The notes under the pieces are model-generated. The model saw only the letters and a program-made list of their open reading frames with translations, had not been told where the DNA came from and did no database searches. This document shows, piece by piece, positions 19,907 through 25,670 of a stretch of DNA of 64,000 bases (the first letter of the stretch is position 1; each line of letters starts with the position of its first letter). This DNA is from Nissabacter sp. SGAir0207. Its GTDB lineage: Bacteria > Pseudomonadota > Gammaproteobacteria > Enterobacterales > Enterobacteriaceae. Location: positions 1 to 64,000 of the forward strand of contig NZ_CP028040.1 in the NCBI RefSeq assembly GCF_005491205.1, given 5' to 3'. The position numbers and the translations under genes are program-made.

Positions 19907-20847
19907 ATGAAACTTGCACTCTGTACCGATGTTCTGGCCGATTTACCCTTTCCGGCCATGTTGGATAAAGTAAAAAGCTATGGCATCACCGGGGTGGAGA
20001 TGACCGCTGGGGGGTGGTCGCCCTGCCCGCACGTCGATACCGAAGCCCTGCTGTCATCGCCCGAGAAGCTGGCGCAGTTCCAACAGGCATTGTCACAGCG
20101 TGAGATGCGCATTGTCGCGCTCAACTGCTCCGGCAACCCGTTGGCTCCCGGCGAGCTGGGCGAGCGGCATACCAAGAGCAGTTACCGCGCGGTCGAATTG
20201 GCGGGCAAACTGGGCGTCAAAAAGATCGTGATGATGAGCGGCCTGCCGGGCGGCGGCCCGGAGGATCGCGTCCCCAACTGGATCACCTCGACCATCTCCT
20301 GGCCGGACTATATGCCGGGGGTGATTGCGTACCAGTGGGACGATGTGGCAATCCCTTGGTGGAAAAAATTTGTCCAGCACGCCAAACAGCATGGCGTTGA
20401 GCAGATTGCGCTGGAGGCGTTCCCCTGCCAGCTGGTTTATAACGCCTCAACCCTGTTGCGTTTGCGCAATGCGGTGGATGAGATGATAGGCATCAACCTT
20501 GATCCCTCGCACCTGATTGCCATGGGCGCTGACCCGATTGCCGCCGTGCGCAAGCTGGAGGGGCGGTGTTCCATGTGCATGGTAAAGATGCGCGCATTGA
20601 GCGCGGTCTGGCGGACATTGATGGCCTGCTGGAGTACCAGCCGGTGACGAACACCAAAACCCGCACCTGGAACTATGTAGCGGTAGGGTGCGGCCAGGAT
20701 CTCAAGTGGTGGAAAGAGTTTTTCTCGGTACTGCGCATGACCGGATATAACGGCGATGTCTCACTGGAGATGGAGGATTTGACCATGAGCGTGGAAGCCG
20801 GTCTGCACACCTCCATTGAGGCCCTGAACGCCAGCATCAGCCGATAA
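19907..20847 (+). CDS. Sugar phosphate isomerase/epimerase (TIM barrel), frameshifted as read
   Basis: An AP-endonuclease-2/xylose-isomerase-like TIM barrel, begun at MKLALCTDVLADLPF. The frame breaks at the GGGG run 20560-20563 (family sequence AVFHVHGKDARIE resumes one frame earlier). One extra G restores a 313-residue protein. Metal-ligand motifs remain: LEAFPCQLVYN, NLDPSHL, FHVHGKD and SLEMED. It probably interconverts keto and aldo forms or epimers of the product of the adjacent dehydrogenase. The single-base loss is probably an assembly error. Confidence 0.8.
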
Positions 20848-21315: not shown

Positions 21316-21785
21316 TCAGGTGTTGCCTGACTGCTTGTAGATATCCGGCCGGGCAATCTGCCAGACAGTGTTCTCAAGGTTGACAGGCTGGTAGCCAAAC
21401 TTCTGGTATAACCAGGGGGCGGTGGTGGTGACCAGCATGATTTTGCGCAGACGGGCCATCAACGGATGGGCCTGGCAGCAACTGACCAACCAACGCCCCA
21501 TCCCCTGCTGCTGGTACTCTTCCAGCACGTAGACGTCACACAGATAACCAAAGGTGGCAAAATCCGTCGCCAGACGGGCAAAACCAATCTGCTTACCCGC
21601 CTCAAACAAACCAAAGCTCAGGCTGTTCGACACCGCCATGCGCACTGTTTCAATGTCGATGCCCTCCGCCCAGCTTGAGCGGGTGAGGTAAGCATGGATG
21701 GCCGGAATATCAAGCTGTGCGATATCCGTCGTGACGCTAAAAGCGCCTTGTTGCCATGAAATAGGGGGTGTGCGGTGGTCATCAT
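21316..21785 (-). CDS. GNAT N-acetyltransferase, frameshifted as read
   Basis: The C-terminal 130 codons encode a GNAT domain: acetyl-CoA-binding VYVLEEYQQQGMGRWLV and the final YQKFGYQPV. The matching N-terminus (ISWQQGAFSVTTDIAQLDIPAIHAYLTRSSWAEGI) is read only if one C is added to the 5-base run at 21764-21768 just after ATGATG at 21785. The corrected protein has 156 residues. The substrate is unknown. It is divergent from the peptide island. Confidence 0.75.
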
Positions 21786-21882
21786 AAACCTTCAGTTAAA
21801 TTAAAACTCGCCAGTCATTCTTAATAAAAGACACACTTTGCCAGCGAAGTAAATCCATCTTGAAAAAACCTCACCATATTAA

Positions 21883-21897: not shown

Positions 21898-22302
21898 TAT
21901 AGAGAGAAGTAATGCGTCCTGTTGCAAGAACATGAGCCTCCAAAATTATGGCGCTCAGCGTAAGATAAACCTTGATAACAATGTCACGGCGTAACATTAT
22001 TTAGCACGGTGACTAATTCTGCTCTAATATTACCCGAACCGTATTTATCCTCAAATAAATATAAGAAAATAATATCCCTTTGCGAAAACGCCAAAAGTAA
22101 AACTTATCGCAGGAGAAGCCGCTATATTTCAACCAATAAACAGATCAAACAAACCGCACACCAACGATATATCCCGCTTATTCTCTGGCATTAAAACAAA
22201 TCAAAGGGCAGCGCTCTCTTTATTAAAAAAAGCATTGTGAAAATGAGCAGGTTATTTTAGCTTAACCCCATAAAGACTAGACCTTAAATCTCGTCTTTAT
22301 CG

Positions 22303-22324
22303 TTCACGCAATATATTGCGTGAA
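22303..22324. promoter_or_regulatory. Perfect 22-bp palindrome before the peptide gene
   Basis: The sequence around CACGCAATATATTGCGTG is perfectly self-complementary over 22 bp (arms TTCACGCAATA / TATTGCGTGAA). It lies 40 bp upstream of the peptide start, where a dimeric regulator would act. A TTTT run follows shortly, so an mRNA stem is also possible. Confidence 0.55.
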
Positions 22325-22363
22325 TGCCTTTTATTCCCATCTAACGCGTAAAGAGGATCCACC

Positions 22364-22438
22364 ATGAAACAGCAAAAGAAAAAAGTTGTTATCGTTGCAA
22401 CTCATGCTCGTCCAGTATTGATGCCTGCGCATCTGTAA
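22364..22438 (+). CDS. 24-residue peptide, candidate RiPP precursor
   Basis: ATG preceded by AAGAGGA at 8 nt. The 24-residue product begins MKQQKKK, continues VVIVATHARP and ends VLMPAHL before TAA. A strongly basic head, a short hydrophobic stretch and a tail with His14, Arg16, Met20 and His23 fit a minimal leader plus core. It is followed at once by a hairpin and then by two genes whose products each carry a PqqD-like domain, the usual recogniser of ribosomal precursor peptides. No similar peptide is known to me. It could alternatively be a leader peptide for attenuation, but it shows no run of one amino acid codon. Confidence 0.6.
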   Translation: MKQQKKKVVIVATHARPVLMPAHL

Positions 22439-22445
22439 TGGGATG

Positions 22446-22470
22446 AAGGCACCCACTGGGTGCCTTTATT
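22446..22470 (+). terminator. Hairpin between the peptide gene and the enzyme genes
   Basis: Stem AAGGCACCC / GGGTGCCTT with loop ACT, followed by TATT. A partial terminator or RNA-stabilising stem here would give more peptide than enzyme mRNA, as is common in RiPP operons. The ribosome site of the next gene (AAGGAG) begins right after it. Confidence 0.65.
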
Positions 22471-22484
22471 ACAAGGAGAATCTT

Positions 22485-23459
22485 ATGGATTATGATAACG
22501 CCAGACCACGGCTTAATTGCGAATTGACGCTGCACAATGACATGCTCCACGCCAATAATGAGTTTGGCGAATTTAAGTTCCAGGAGTTACCGGTAGATAG
22601 CCAATCCGCCTATGATATTTTAGGTCAGATCAACGGGGAAACGACCACCCGTGAGTTGATCAATCAATGGAAAGCCAAAATAGAGCCAGAAGATTTGGTG
22701 CAACTTCTGGATGCCATGCAGGAGTTTGGCCTCGTTCTAAAAAATAATAGCGCATATATGAGCGGCAAAGCCGCCATGTTAGAGATAGAGGATGAGCAAC
22801 ACGCGTGGCTCCATGCCCTACTTTATAAAAATCCCCTTTGGGAAGCGCTTTCCCAACCGGCCGCCGTGCCCAAAAATGTCTATCTGGGCATGGCGATTGA
22901 AACTTACCATCTCCTGGCGCATGGCGCGGTATTTGACAGCCCAGCACTCTCATTCCAGGGTGCCAGACAAACGCGCAAAGAGATGAGTGAAGTATTCTGT
23001 GAAGAGAATGGTCACTATGAGATCTTTCTTTCCGCACTGATGGCCGAGGGTTTCACCAAAGAGGAGATCAGAAATAGCGTGCCTCTGGCTGAGACCAAAG
23101 GGTTGATTAATGCCTTGGCCTTTTGGTCAGCCAATGATCCCCTGTTCTTCTTTAGTTGCATGGAGATCATTGAAGGCAAAGACAATGAAGTCGATACCGT
23201 GGTCAATGCCATGGAAAGGTCTGGAAAGCTCTCACCCGAATTTGTCAAAAAAATAAAGTCTCACTCATTGGTCAATATTGAAGAGGGCCATGCCAGCTTT
23301 GGCCGCCGTCTCTTGTCTGGCATTGATGTAGTGAACCCATTTGACGTTGAGCGCGCCATTCGCCAGACCAAACTGTTTGTAGAACTCTACCACCACTTTT
23401 ATCTTGCGGTGTGGGAGTACTATTCAAATGAGCACAACCCCGTTCTGCGTACCATTTAA
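22485..23459 (+). CDS. RRE (PqqD-like) - heme-oxygenase-like diiron oxidase fusion
   Basis: 324 residues from MDYDNARPRL (RBS AAGGAG). Residues ~25-87 have the PqqD/RRE pattern: a beta-rich start (EFKFQELP), then DILGQINGETTTRELINQW and EDLVQLLDAMQEFGLVL. Residues ~105-320 are all-helical like PqqC/TenA/CADD proteins, with candidate metal ligands in AIETYHLLAH (Glu139, His142, His146), EENGHYE (Glu173/174, His177), SCMEIIEG (Glu227) and NIEEGHASFG (Glu266/267, His269). Diiron members of this superfamily hydroxylate, N-oxygenate, desaturate or cleave C-C bonds. Together this suggests an enzyme that binds the upstream peptide and oxidises it. The function is inference; the fold assignment is by pattern. 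Confidence 0.7.
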   Translation: MDYDNARPRLNCELTLHNDMLHANNEFGEFKFQELPVDSQSAYDILGQINGETTTRELINQWKAKIEPEDLVQLLDAMQEFGLVLKNNSAYMSGKAAMLEIEDEQHAWLHALLYKNPLWEALSQPAAVPKNVYLGMAIETYHLLAHGAVFDSPALSFQGARQTRKEMSEVFCEENGHYEIFLSALMAEGFTKEEIRNSVPLAETKGLINALAFWSANDPLFFFSCMEIIEGKDNEVDTVVNAMERSGKLSPEFVKKIKSHSLVNIEEGHASFGRRLLSGIDVVNPFDVERAIRQTKLFVELYHHFYLAVWEYYSNEHNPVLRTI

Positions 23460-23470
23460 GGGAGGCGGCA

Positions 23471-24471
23471 ATGTTTTTTACTAACCCAAAATTAAGAAAA
23501 GAGATCAAGGTTGAGTGCGACAATACCACCTTTCACCTGTTTTACCGCGAACAGGGCTGCCGTTTGAGCGTCGAGAAGGACGATCTTCATGAAGTTACGC
23601 GCTTAATAAATTGCCTATCTGACCGCGATGCCGCGTTGGCAGATATCTCCCCGGCAATCGTGAACATTGACGTTGAGGAGATTATCTCAACGCTCGATAA
23701 GTTGGGCCTGTTGGAAGAGGGAAGCGAAAGCCTGCCTGCGCCTTCGGGTGTATTGAGCGGGGAAGATTTTTACTATAGCCGTTTATTGCCGACGGCCACC
23801 AAATGGCAATCAACCTTTGGCACTTCCCCCTCTATGAACGTCTGGTCACGGGTGCCATTACCAAGGGTGAAATTATTGGCTTTGCCATCGAGTACTATCA
23901 CCTGGTCAAAATGTCTGCCGCCATCGTCTCCTCATCCTTGAGCCACAACGTTTCGCCGGCCGTCAGAAAAGAGCTGACCAAACTCTTTATCGAAGAGTAT
24001 AACCACGACGAGATGATGGCCGAGTGCCTGTCTGCGGTAGGGATACCCGAAAGCGAACTGCTCAAAAGAAATCCGCTGCCCGCCACGTTCTCCGCCAATG
24101 CCAGCCTGGCGGTCTATGCCCGGCAACATCCGTTAAGTTTTTATAGCTCCCTTTTCCTGTTTGAAACGCCCTCCCATGAGTTCAACGCGGCACTATTGCA
24201 AGCCTGTAAGGATAAGGGCCTGCCGGAGAAATTTTACAAACCGATCCTGAAGCACTCGGATATCAATGAAGATGGCGATCACGATTTAATTACCCTCAAC
24301 CTGCTCAAAGAGACGCCCGCCATCTCCGCGGAGGAGCAGCACACCATTTTGGTCAATGTCTGTAATATCATTGAATTACTGCATAAAGAGGACAGGCAAA
24401 TTGTGGCGCACTATGCCGACAGCGATGTGCCAGCGTCGAGCTTGTCATACTCTGGCCTGGAAGCCTATTAA
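23471..24471 (+). CDS. Second RRE - heme-oxygenase-like oxidase fusion, frameshifted as read
   Basis: Starts at ATG 23471 behind GGAGG, 11 bp after the first enzyme. The N-terminal ~90 residues again look PqqD-like (LSVEKDDLHEVTRLINCLSDRDAALADISP... EEIISTLDKLGLLEEG). The helical domain continues one frame earlier, from about FIADGHQMAINLWHFPLYERL, with AIEYYHLVK, FIEEYNHDEMM, FLFETPSHE and NEDGDHD at the metal-ligand positions. The break lies in 23767-23800, possibly the TTTTT run at 23767-23771. One added base gives 333 residues, matching its paralogue. The downstream ATG at 23803 has no ribosome site, so this is one gene. Error is more likely than a programmed shift. Confidence 0.65.
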
Positions 24472-24473
24472 GC

Positions 24474-25670
24474 ATGATTGCGTCTATTAAACCGACGAAC
24501 TTACCCGCTGGTTCGGCGTTGCTGCCCCTGTTCGTTACCCACTGGCTGGAGCGACTGCTCTTTCTGTCGGTGAGCATTGTCTGGCCATTGAAGTTGGTGG
24601 TACAGGGCCATCTCACTACGCCGCAGGCGGGCCTCTTTTACTTTATCCTCTTTAGCCTGTTTAGAGCCTCCCCGATTCTCTACGCTTATCTGGCAAAAAC
24701 CGTCGCCCGTGAAAAGATTTTTCTCTGTGGCGCGGTAATTGAGTCTTGCGCTTTTTTGGGGATGATATTCATCCAATCCCCGCTGTTGCTTATGGCATTG
24801 GCAATATTCGCTGGCATCGGGGGAGGCGCCACCTCCTCCATGTTGCTCTCTTTTTTGGAGGAGGTGGATAAAAGGGCCGTTTCCTCAGGCACCACAAAAA
24901 GCAGCCATCAGGTGTTCAATACCCATCTGTTATTGATCAATCTTGCGGCGGTAATTGCGCCCTTGTTAGCCATCCTGGCTCCTGCCCACTATATCGCCTC
25001 CATCATGGTGCTCTTTGCGGCGTTTCTCTTTAGCGCGCGCCATATCTTCCGGCTCACCGCTGGCTTTGATAGGGGAAGTGAGGTTGAGGAGAGAAAGGAG
25101 CGCGCCATTGACGGTAAATTCTTATCGGAGTGGCTTGCCTGCCTGTCCGTTTGGGCCGGGTGCTCGGTGGTATACGCGATTCTGCCGTCACTCGACGCCC
25201 ATTTTCTGGCTACGGAGGGCGTCAATTTCTGGCTCTCCTTCGATGCGATTATCGTGACGTTGCTCTTTTTTGCCATGAAGAGATATGACCTGTTCAGCGA
25301 AAATACGCCGACCAATGCGTTGAAAGGGCTGGCTGCCATCTTCATCGCCCTGCTTATCTTCTACAGTGGCACCCGCTATTTTCCACTGCTGGTGGTCGCC
25401 ATCTCGCTGCTCTCTTTTGGCGGTTATGTGGCATTTGGGCAACTGTATGGTTTGGCGATGGCTACGCATTTCCCTGCGCGAAAAACGTTCTACCTCTCGC
25501 TGCTCTCTATGTCCGGTGCCATTGGGGAAGGAGGAGTACAGGGCCTGTTTTGGCTGACAGGCAGTACACAGCTCACCCTTTTCATCGTGTTGCTGCTGGT
25601 GGTGGCTGGCATGTGCCCGCTACTCCTGCTGCTCCTGAAAGGCTATAAGACCCGCCCCGTGAAGCCCTGA
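24474..25670 (+). CDS. MFS transporter of the peptide island
   Basis: 398 residues, about 11-12 membrane helices, general major-facilitator pattern without a sugar or drug-family signature. It starts 2 bp after the second oxidase stops, so it is part of the same operon, and it is the last gene before a terminator. Export of the modified peptide or its product is the natural role; uptake cannot be excluded. Confidence 0.7.
   Translation: MIASIKPTNLPAGSALLPLFVTHWLERLLFLSVSIVWPLKLVVQGHLTTPQAGLFYFILFSLFRASPILYAYLAKTVAREKIFLCGAVIESCAFLGMIFIQSPLLLMALAIFAGIGGGATSSMLLSFLEEVDKRAVSSGTTKSSHQVFNTHLLLINLAAVIAPLLAILAPAHYIASIMVLFAAFLFSARHIFRLTAGFDRGSEVEERKERAIDGKFLSEWLACLSVWAGCSVVYAILPSLDAHFLATEGVNFWLSFDAIIVTLLFFAMKRYDLFSENTPTNALKGLAAIFIALLIFYSGTRYFPLLVVAISLLSFGGYVAFGQLYGLAMATHFPARKTFYLSLLSMSGAIGEGGVQGLFWLTGSTQLTLFIVLLLVVAGMCPLLLLLLKGYKTRPVKP

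Follow-up and report, generated by a model that had tools for sequence, protein, structure and literature searches.

How would a bacterium use a gene of 24 codons that stands directly ahead of genes for two heme-oxygenase-like proteins and a transporter? The question is raised by the first 64,000 nucleotides of contig NZ_CP028040.1 of Nissabacter sp. SGAir0207 (the window; positions are numbered within it unless another locus is named), where these genes follow one another on the forward strand between 22364 and 25670. A preliminary description, made from the letters of the sequence, saw in them a candidate system for a ribosomally synthesized and post-translationally modified peptide (RiPP). 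Comparison with related loci makes it likely that the cluster does make a RiPP. In this pathway the tiny open reading frame (ORF) would encode the precursor; two oxidases (here HDO1 and HDO2, for heme-oxygenase-like diiron oxidase), each with an N-terminal domain resembling a RiPP recognition element (RRE), would form a heterodimer that oxidizes the C-terminus of the precursor; and a transporter of the major facilitator superfamily (MFS) would export the product. Most likely, this is a RiPP system with a new enzyme architecture and a new type of precursor.

A conserved peptide gene ahead of the oxidases

The peptide gene (22364-22438) has 24 codons (MKQQKKKVVIVATHARPVLMPAHL), ends in TAA and is preceded by a ribosome site, AGAGGA, just as the preliminary description had it. 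Relatives of the cluster bring the number of distinct loci, window included, to 17, a lower bound that two patterns of the contig-collection scan skew to close relatives. The Enterobacterales contribute the window, Chimaeribacter californicus, Acerihabitans arboris, Klebsiella sp., three enterobacterial metagenome-assembled genomes (MAGs) and two Photorhabdus; the remainder come from three Pseudomonas, Vibrio sp. AND4, a Lysobacteraceae MAG, Robbsia, Tistrella and Rhodococcus. Counterparts of the peptide at the 16 other loci all end in His-Leu (HL) immediately before the stop codon; their last 17 residues stack without a gap, and the N-terminus is variable. Most share the C-terminal pattern [VI][VI]I[VK][AP]K..RP[VI]L[MLIV][PA].HL, the outliers being Rhodococcus (MTITKKKRTIVAVAVHL) and Tistrella, and at 16 of the 17 loci the length is 20-37 codons.

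Except in Tistrella, the peptides were initially spotted by eye, on lists of short ORFs 5' of HDO1 to which no filter had been applied. A fixed rule (ATG start, ribosome site, 15-70 aa, HL before the stop codon, no more than 480 bases upstream of HDO1) picks out exactly one ORF at each of 16 loci. Of 1832 background windows, 14 satisfy the rule, some of them true sites because cluster DNA was part of the background, and none of 8 ordinary heme-oxygenase-like genes has such an ORF beside it. Since the scripts that collected the peptides required HL, the HL ending is partly a condition of the counts made with them. At the 17th locus, on Tistrella mobilis pTM3 (L049:5702-9857), a separate locus scan for ORFs ending in HL found a longer precursor that ends in KPVLIAVHL and lies about 1.9 kb ahead of a fused HDO1-HDO2 gene; between the two is the apparent C-terminus of a thiamine-diphosphate enzyme (by eye). 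Thus the check that the preliminary description had proposed, a search for a conserved short ORF upstream of the homologues, came out positive, and the loci show what is expected of a RiPP system, a precursor gene conserved beside modifying enzymes. No protease for leader removal appeared among the genes given to Pfam, the clusters having had no systematic protease search.

Conservation of the peptide peaks at the stop codon. Over the last nine codons, comparison of all pairs of loci (which are not independent) gives 386, 170 and 717 differences at first, second and third codon positions, respectively. Because third positions vary most, the ORF is very likely translated. Judged from these alignments, it is a conserved gene tied to this oxidase family.

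The preliminary description also noted a hairpin past the tiny ORF. This structure (12 bp, 22443-22469, forward strand) lies between the peptide and HDO1 genes, and its folding energy is -22.5, compared with -11.6 in shuffled sequences (z -4.1). At 15 of the 17 loci the peptide is followed by a hairpin with z below -2, a folding energy that none or almost none of 100 dinucleotide-shuffled sequences matches; the hairpins of Acerihabitans (z -1.9) and of Tistrella (z -1.5) are weaker. A terminator scan of the window, which overall gave 6 sites against 4.3 (sd 2.0) in shuffles and is thus weak, omitted the 22443-22469 hairpin and listed as terminator-like another with a T-rich tail at 22301-22326 (forward strand), 5' of the peptide ORF. 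The hairpin between the genes is probably a partial terminator that sets the ratio of peptide to enzyme. An Rfam match to SraB RNA (22323-22473, over the peptide ORF and the hairpin; E 0.0034, 26.3 of 130 bits) was judged to be due to chance.

Two paired oxidases

HDO1 is encoded at 22485-23459 (forward strand; 324 aa; PF14518, E 1.2e-8). Its AlphaFold2 model (predicted local distance difference test, pLDDT, 83.8) divides into an RRE-like domain at residues ~1-90 and a heme-oxygenase-like domain at ~92-320, and its matches in the Protein Data Bank (PDB) include 3dde, CADD, PqqC and UndA. HDO2 was modelled with the same two parts; in both enzymes the N-terminal domain runs from strands to three helices, and that of HDO2 begins with an additional short strand. 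PF14518 is found at E<=1 in 16 of 16 HDO1 and 14 of 15 HDO2 sequences. The window's C-terminal piece of HDO2 matches it at E 2.4e-11, together with TENA_THI-4 (E 5.5e-7) and, far below cut-off, the CADD family (E 1.9e-6). Both the family match and the fold matches thus indicate the helical fold of heme oxygenase. Matches to streptococcal exotoxin chains (E about 0.3) were judged to be due to chance.

HDO2 adjoins HDO1 at all 16 loci where the contig is long enough (the Vibrio contig ends), including the window's broken copy and Tistrella, in which one 691-aa ORF (L049:7782-9857) holds both oxidases. Because HDO2 always follows HDO1 and the two are naturally fused in Tistrella, there is good evidence from gene order that they form a physical pair. 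The fusion also lends support to the heterodimer suggested in the preliminary description. When the fusion was aligned with all other rows, the HDO2 rows fell on its first half, and this alignment was left unused for modelling.

The predicted metal site

Ligand positions were mapped by motif matching in a HMMER alignment of HDO1 with MboA, the mangotoxin acetylenase, whose ligands are given as Glu86, His89, Glu143, His172, Asp176 and His181 in PMC13185094. The corresponding residues of HDO1 are E174, H177, E230, H260, N264 and H269, with N264 at the place of Asp176. The motif H-x3-N-x4-H is present in 16/16 HDO1 and 15/15 HDO2 sequences, in both Tistrella domains and in 8/8 of the third oxidases given (9 are known), and E-x2-H is present in 15/16 HDO1 and 15/15 HDO2. 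Thus the C-terminal heme-oxygenase-like pattern with Glu/His motifs that the preliminary description recognized is borne out by both the modelled fold and the conserved ligand positions, and the oxidases are probably iron-dependent. The exception to E-x2-H is the HDO1 of Photorhabdus luminescens DSM 3368 (L047:7875-9853), which has Tyr for His; unrelated genes lie past its HDO2. Given these two features, this copy may be decaying.

Variants of the cluster

Around this core the gene content differs. By phmmer counts (ORFs of at least 80 aa, E<=1e-4), 9 loci have a third oxidase of about 468-532 aa (clipped in one case by the locus end), 8 have a class III aminotransferase and 6 an ATP-grasp ligase; a Gcn5-related N-acetyltransferase (GNAT) is found at 9, the window among them. 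Twelve clusters contain an exporter. In 10 of these it is an MFS protein of one of two subfamilies; the annotation gives another MFS protein for Rhodococcus and an EamA protein for Robbsia. By eye, L041 has an MFS-like gene. None was found within the fetched flanks of Photorhabdus luminescens and Tistrella, and two further contigs end too early. In the window the MFS gene (24474-25670, forward strand), the candidate exporter, begins 2 bp past the end of HDO2, as the preliminary description stated; its PF07690 match (E 6.8e-8, 32.2 bits) is slightly below the cut-off of 33.4, and related genes are present in clusters L033, L034, L036 and L037. In C. californicus, Pfam detects Aminotran_3 (E 1.1e-49), MFS_1, Acetyltransf_7 and ATP-grasp_4 with an L-amino-acid-ligase C-terminal domain, the latter slightly below cut-off. 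The compact form (peptide, HDO1, HDO2 and MFS) is that of the window, Acerihabitans, L036 and L037.

A sister-like arrangement, outside the 17 loci, is present on the Enterobacter chuandaensis plasmid NZ_CP097174.1 (L052:7775-9230; tblastn match, 22.6% identity). Here a 15-aa ORF led by a Shine-Dalgarno sequence (MKVTRRVIPVMNARL) ends in ARL and is followed by a hairpin (by eye) and then by a 449-aa PF14518 protein with H-x3-N-x4-H. The cluster also contains an aminotransferase, a second PF14518 protein, an M14 peptidase, an MFS protein and a nucleotidyltransferase. No second plasmid matching most of this region was found.

A possible pathway

The beta-prone stretch of the precursor (KVVIVA or KVVIKP) would dock on the winged-helix, RRE-like N-terminal domains of both enzymes; HDO1 and HDO2 would form a heterodimer and work together as iron oxidases of the heme-oxygenase fold. 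The tail, RP(I/V)L(M/L)xxHL, would then enter the active site, where its free C-terminal carboxylate would help to bind iron, as the substrate carboxylate does in MboA and in several of its relatives. This placement, with the middle of the peptide on the RRE-like domain and its C-terminus at the iron, is proposed because the terminal HL is strict, because its spacing to VVI is mostly fixed, and because MboA provides a precedent. The C-terminal Leu and/or His could then be altered by oxygen-dependent desaturation, hydroxylation or C-C cleavage. The hairpin past the peptide gene would reduce synthesis of the enzymes relative to the peptide. Host proteases may trim the modified peptide, and the MFS protein would export a small oxidized peptide or amino acid, possibly an amino-acid antimetabolite from which the neighboring GNAT would protect the producer. 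In larger clusters the third oxidase, class III aminotransferase and ATP-grasp ligase would add steps; the substrate of the aminotransferase and ligase might be a carbonyl that the oxidases generate, to which an amino acid would be attached.

There is about an even chance that these loci define a RiPP class with a C-terminal His-Leu core and an obligate, RRE-bearing oxidase heterodimer (at one locus a fusion) with an Asn iron site. The peptide would be read from both ends, its strand-forming part by the recognition domain and its free C-terminus by the iron. Further clusters with other cores, such as that of the Enterobacter plasmid (ARL), would then follow the same scheme.

Evidence against and alternative explanations

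Several findings weigh against the proposed RiPP pathway. The preliminary description had assigned the N-terminal ~90 residues to the PqqD pattern. The predicted order of strands and helices is like that of PqqD, and in hhalign the N-terminal part of HDO1 scores 26.0 against PqqD (P 46%), compared with 19.1 for the best of 40 shuffles and 8.8-12.3 for HDO1 windows clear of this part. However, the N-terminal part of HDO2 reaches a P of only 0.8% against PqqD, and no PqqD family match at E<=1 was obtained from Pfam/NCBIfam with 16 HDO1 and 15 HDO2 sequences (one being the window's C-terminal piece). The two N-terminal parts match each other with a P of 94%. Thus, the models and profile comparisons only partly support identification of these domains as RREs. 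Another such finding is that Asn replaces the normally conserved Asp in 41 of 41 domains (17 HDO1, 16 HDO2 and 8 third oxidases; that is, 16 HDO1 plus Tistrella, 15 HDO2, one of them the window's C-terminal piece, plus Tistrella, and 8 of the 9 third oxidases), so the full set of three His and three carboxylate ligands is absent from all of them. Since 8 ordinary superfamily members keep Asp, all with H-x3-D-x2-H, the Asn is a mark of this group in the sequences compared. Since Asn is found throughout, the enzymes are not canonical three-His/three-carboxylate members; they have the HDO fold and are probably HDO-like in action. The last of these findings is that HDO2 is split over two ORFs in the window.

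This split lies between an N-terminal part at 23471-23941 (forward strand; the RRE-like domain and the start of the oxidase domain), whose homology stops at ~23826, and a C-terminal part in a different frame at 23803-24471 (forward strand; heme-oxygenase-like, with E-x2-H and H-x3-N-x4-H), which aligns to intact copies. Homology switches frame at ~23826-23830, within a C run. Therefore, of the two paralogous enzyme genes of the preliminary description, HDO1 is intact and HDO2 does not stand as one ORF. In the relatives HDO2 is intact 14 times, and one more copy is fused to HDO1. The break, and a GNAT frame that lacks a usual start codon, could mean that the cluster is decaying in the window and no longer has a function. 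The Photorhabdus luminescens copy, besides its Tyr substitution, shows no homologue of the third oxidase, aminotransferase, ligase, MFS or GNAT. However, the HDO1, peptide and MFS frames are all open in the window, and by eye two more frames shift at short G/C runs, in an unrelated isomerase (~20.56 kb, at a short G run) and at the GNAT start (~21.77 kb). Three frame changes at such runs thus fall within 4 kb (20540-20660, 21640-21790 and 23800-23840, by eye), which hints at assembly error and makes a sequencing error plausible. A scarcity of long G/C runs in the window, first seen in comparison with L014, was dropped after a wider count, in which runs of at least 6 number 0.078 per kb in the window and 0 to 0.6 per kb across several relatives. 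Because this count is ordinary, a general homopolymer error gets no support. The loss of the argument from scarcity led us to raise slightly the low probability given to a remnant, which we still regard as improbable.

The strongest rival to a precursor is a ribosome-arrest leader. In this case, a metabolite would trigger stalling at the stop codon of the tiny ORF, the hairpin would be a controlled terminator, and the oxidases would use a small molecule (an amino acid, for example). An ORF this short, conserved most strongly at its stop codon and followed soon after by a hairpin, is what such a leader would look like. However, the stop codon is not fixed (TAA at 14 loci; TGA at Acerihabitans, Tistrella and Rhodococcus), the distance from the stop codon to the main stem varies from ~3 to ~21 nt across loci (by eye), and in Tistrella the peptide is displaced by about 1.9 kb, with a gene intervening (by eye). 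In addition, each oxidase has a further domain at its N-terminus, in which strands and helices follow one another in an RRE-like order. We therefore hold an arrest leader to be unlikely. Still less probable, and in our judgment very doubtful, is a scheme in which the peptide serves as a scaffold: an ATP-grasp ligase or aminoacyl donor would add a residue to its C-terminus, the oxidases would tailor that residue, and the product would then be released, as reportedly occurs in pearlin-type pathways. The ligases and aminotransferases of the larger clusters (6 and 8 loci) would fit this scheme, as would the unvarying C-terminus if residues are always attached at the same point. However, homologues of the L014 ligase or aminotransferase are absent from the searched stretches of the window, L033, L036 and L037. 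Because compact clusters show none, the minimal system would have to work without a ligase or use a distant gene.

Genomic surroundings and distribution

Divergent from the cluster is the GNAT gene (21316-21645, reverse strand; PF13508, E 2.9e-12), a candidate self-protection or tailoring enzyme whose frame is open upstream to ~21770; it is homologous to GNAT genes at 8 other loci. The other flank includes a gene for a substrate-binding protein like those of sulfonate transporters (TIGR01728, below cut-off). Matches to sigma-70 promoters number 7, against 5.5 (sd 2.4) in shuffles.

The system was found in 5 of 392 genomes of the family (two-sequence profile, E<=1e-15), and among 369 class and 398 phylum genomes sampled (16-sequence profile, E<=1e-20) only the window's genome was positive. 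An earlier scan of a genome contig collection returned no relatives; the later one gave 14 loci, 4 of them already known, and tblastn against plasmids added Robbsia and Rhodococcus. A scan of viral contigs with HDO1 found no match, and megablast against E. coli genomes found none to the window's cluster or to the Enterobacter plasmid region. Two Pseudoalteromonas plasmid matches (27.5-29.5% identity over 54% of the query) stand outside the 17 loci. The GC content is 0.505 at 22364-25670, compared with 0.571 for the whole window and 0.649 at 26-30 kb. Since the distribution is patchy and the GC content lower than that of the surroundings, the observations fit horizontal transfer of a biosynthetic cluster.

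Relation to known systems

Biosynthesis of pyrroloquinoline quinone (PQQ) also combines a tiny precursor, PqqA, with a recognition domain, PqqD. PqqC shares the fold of the present oxidases, and one of the fold matches is a protein in which PqqC and PqqD are naturally fused. In that fusion, however, PqqD comes after PqqC. Furthermore, the PQQ pathway starts with a radical S-adenosylmethionine enzyme, PqqE; PqqC oxidizes without a cofactor; and PqqA does not resemble the HL-ending peptides. A PqqD gene is present elsewhere in the window's genome (G000:C1:348926-349117, L054; PF05402, E 1.3e-14). Since by eye it lies in a PQQ operon, the PqqC/PqqD pair of this genome is probably used for its own cofactor. 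The solved structure 3dde (Sden_3740 of Shewanella) is a single domain of unknown function and shows H-x3-D-x2-H in the alignment.

After 3dde, the solved enzyme nearest to the HDO1 profile is MboA (E 3.5e-4). It shares the H-x3-(D/N)-x4-H spacing, and according to PMC13185094 its target is the last residue of a peptide, which it oxidizes with the substrate's C-terminal carboxylate bound to Fe1. However, this substrate is a non-ribosomal tripeptide made by ATP-grasp ligases, MboA uses a separate redox partner, MboB, and its Asp176 corresponds to an Asn in every domain examined here. Among the window's ORFs of at least 80 aa there is no homologue of the L014 ATP-grasp protein that would suggest a mangotoxin-type pathway. 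CADD (4-aminobenzoate synthase) is described in PMC13108848 as self-sacrificing, cleaving its own tyrosine. Its chain of ~231 residues leaves, by its length, no such N-terminal domain. A word search of that paper finds no mention of PqqD, RRE, fusion or leader.

Also close is the thiovarsolin pathway. In the passages of PMC6511847 examined, the heme-oxygenase-like protein VarO is credited with desaturating Arg of the precursor VarA, and whether it does so before or after proteolysis is left undecided. Like the present loci, the thiovarsolin cluster combines a ribosomal precursor with a heme-oxygenase-like protein, and it also has an MFS protein and an ATP-grasp ligase. However, VarO acts beside a YcaO-TfuA pair on a repeating precursor, whereas here two or three paralogous oxidases have an N-terminal domain of their own and the precursor ends in HL. 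Neither YcaO nor TfuA was detected among the 8 window proteins scanned (the enzymes, MFS and four neighbors). The preliminary description, which knew of no described system of this composition, must therefore be qualified: the open-licence literature searched yielded no account of oxidases fused to an RRE-like domain and paired with an HL precursor, but a heme-oxygenase-like RiPP enzyme, VarO, was already known.

According to PMC13108848, about a dozen enzymes of this superfamily have been characterized. VarO is the only one that the literature found here links to a ribosomal peptide. The present loci offer a compact, conserved and quickly testable set, a peptide, two enzymes and usually a transporter, that extends from the Enterobacterales to Rhodococcus. 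They also provide a natural test of the effect of Asn at the iron site of this fold. The system would show how oxidases of the heme-oxygenase fold can target genetically encoded peptides, which would be useful for engineering.

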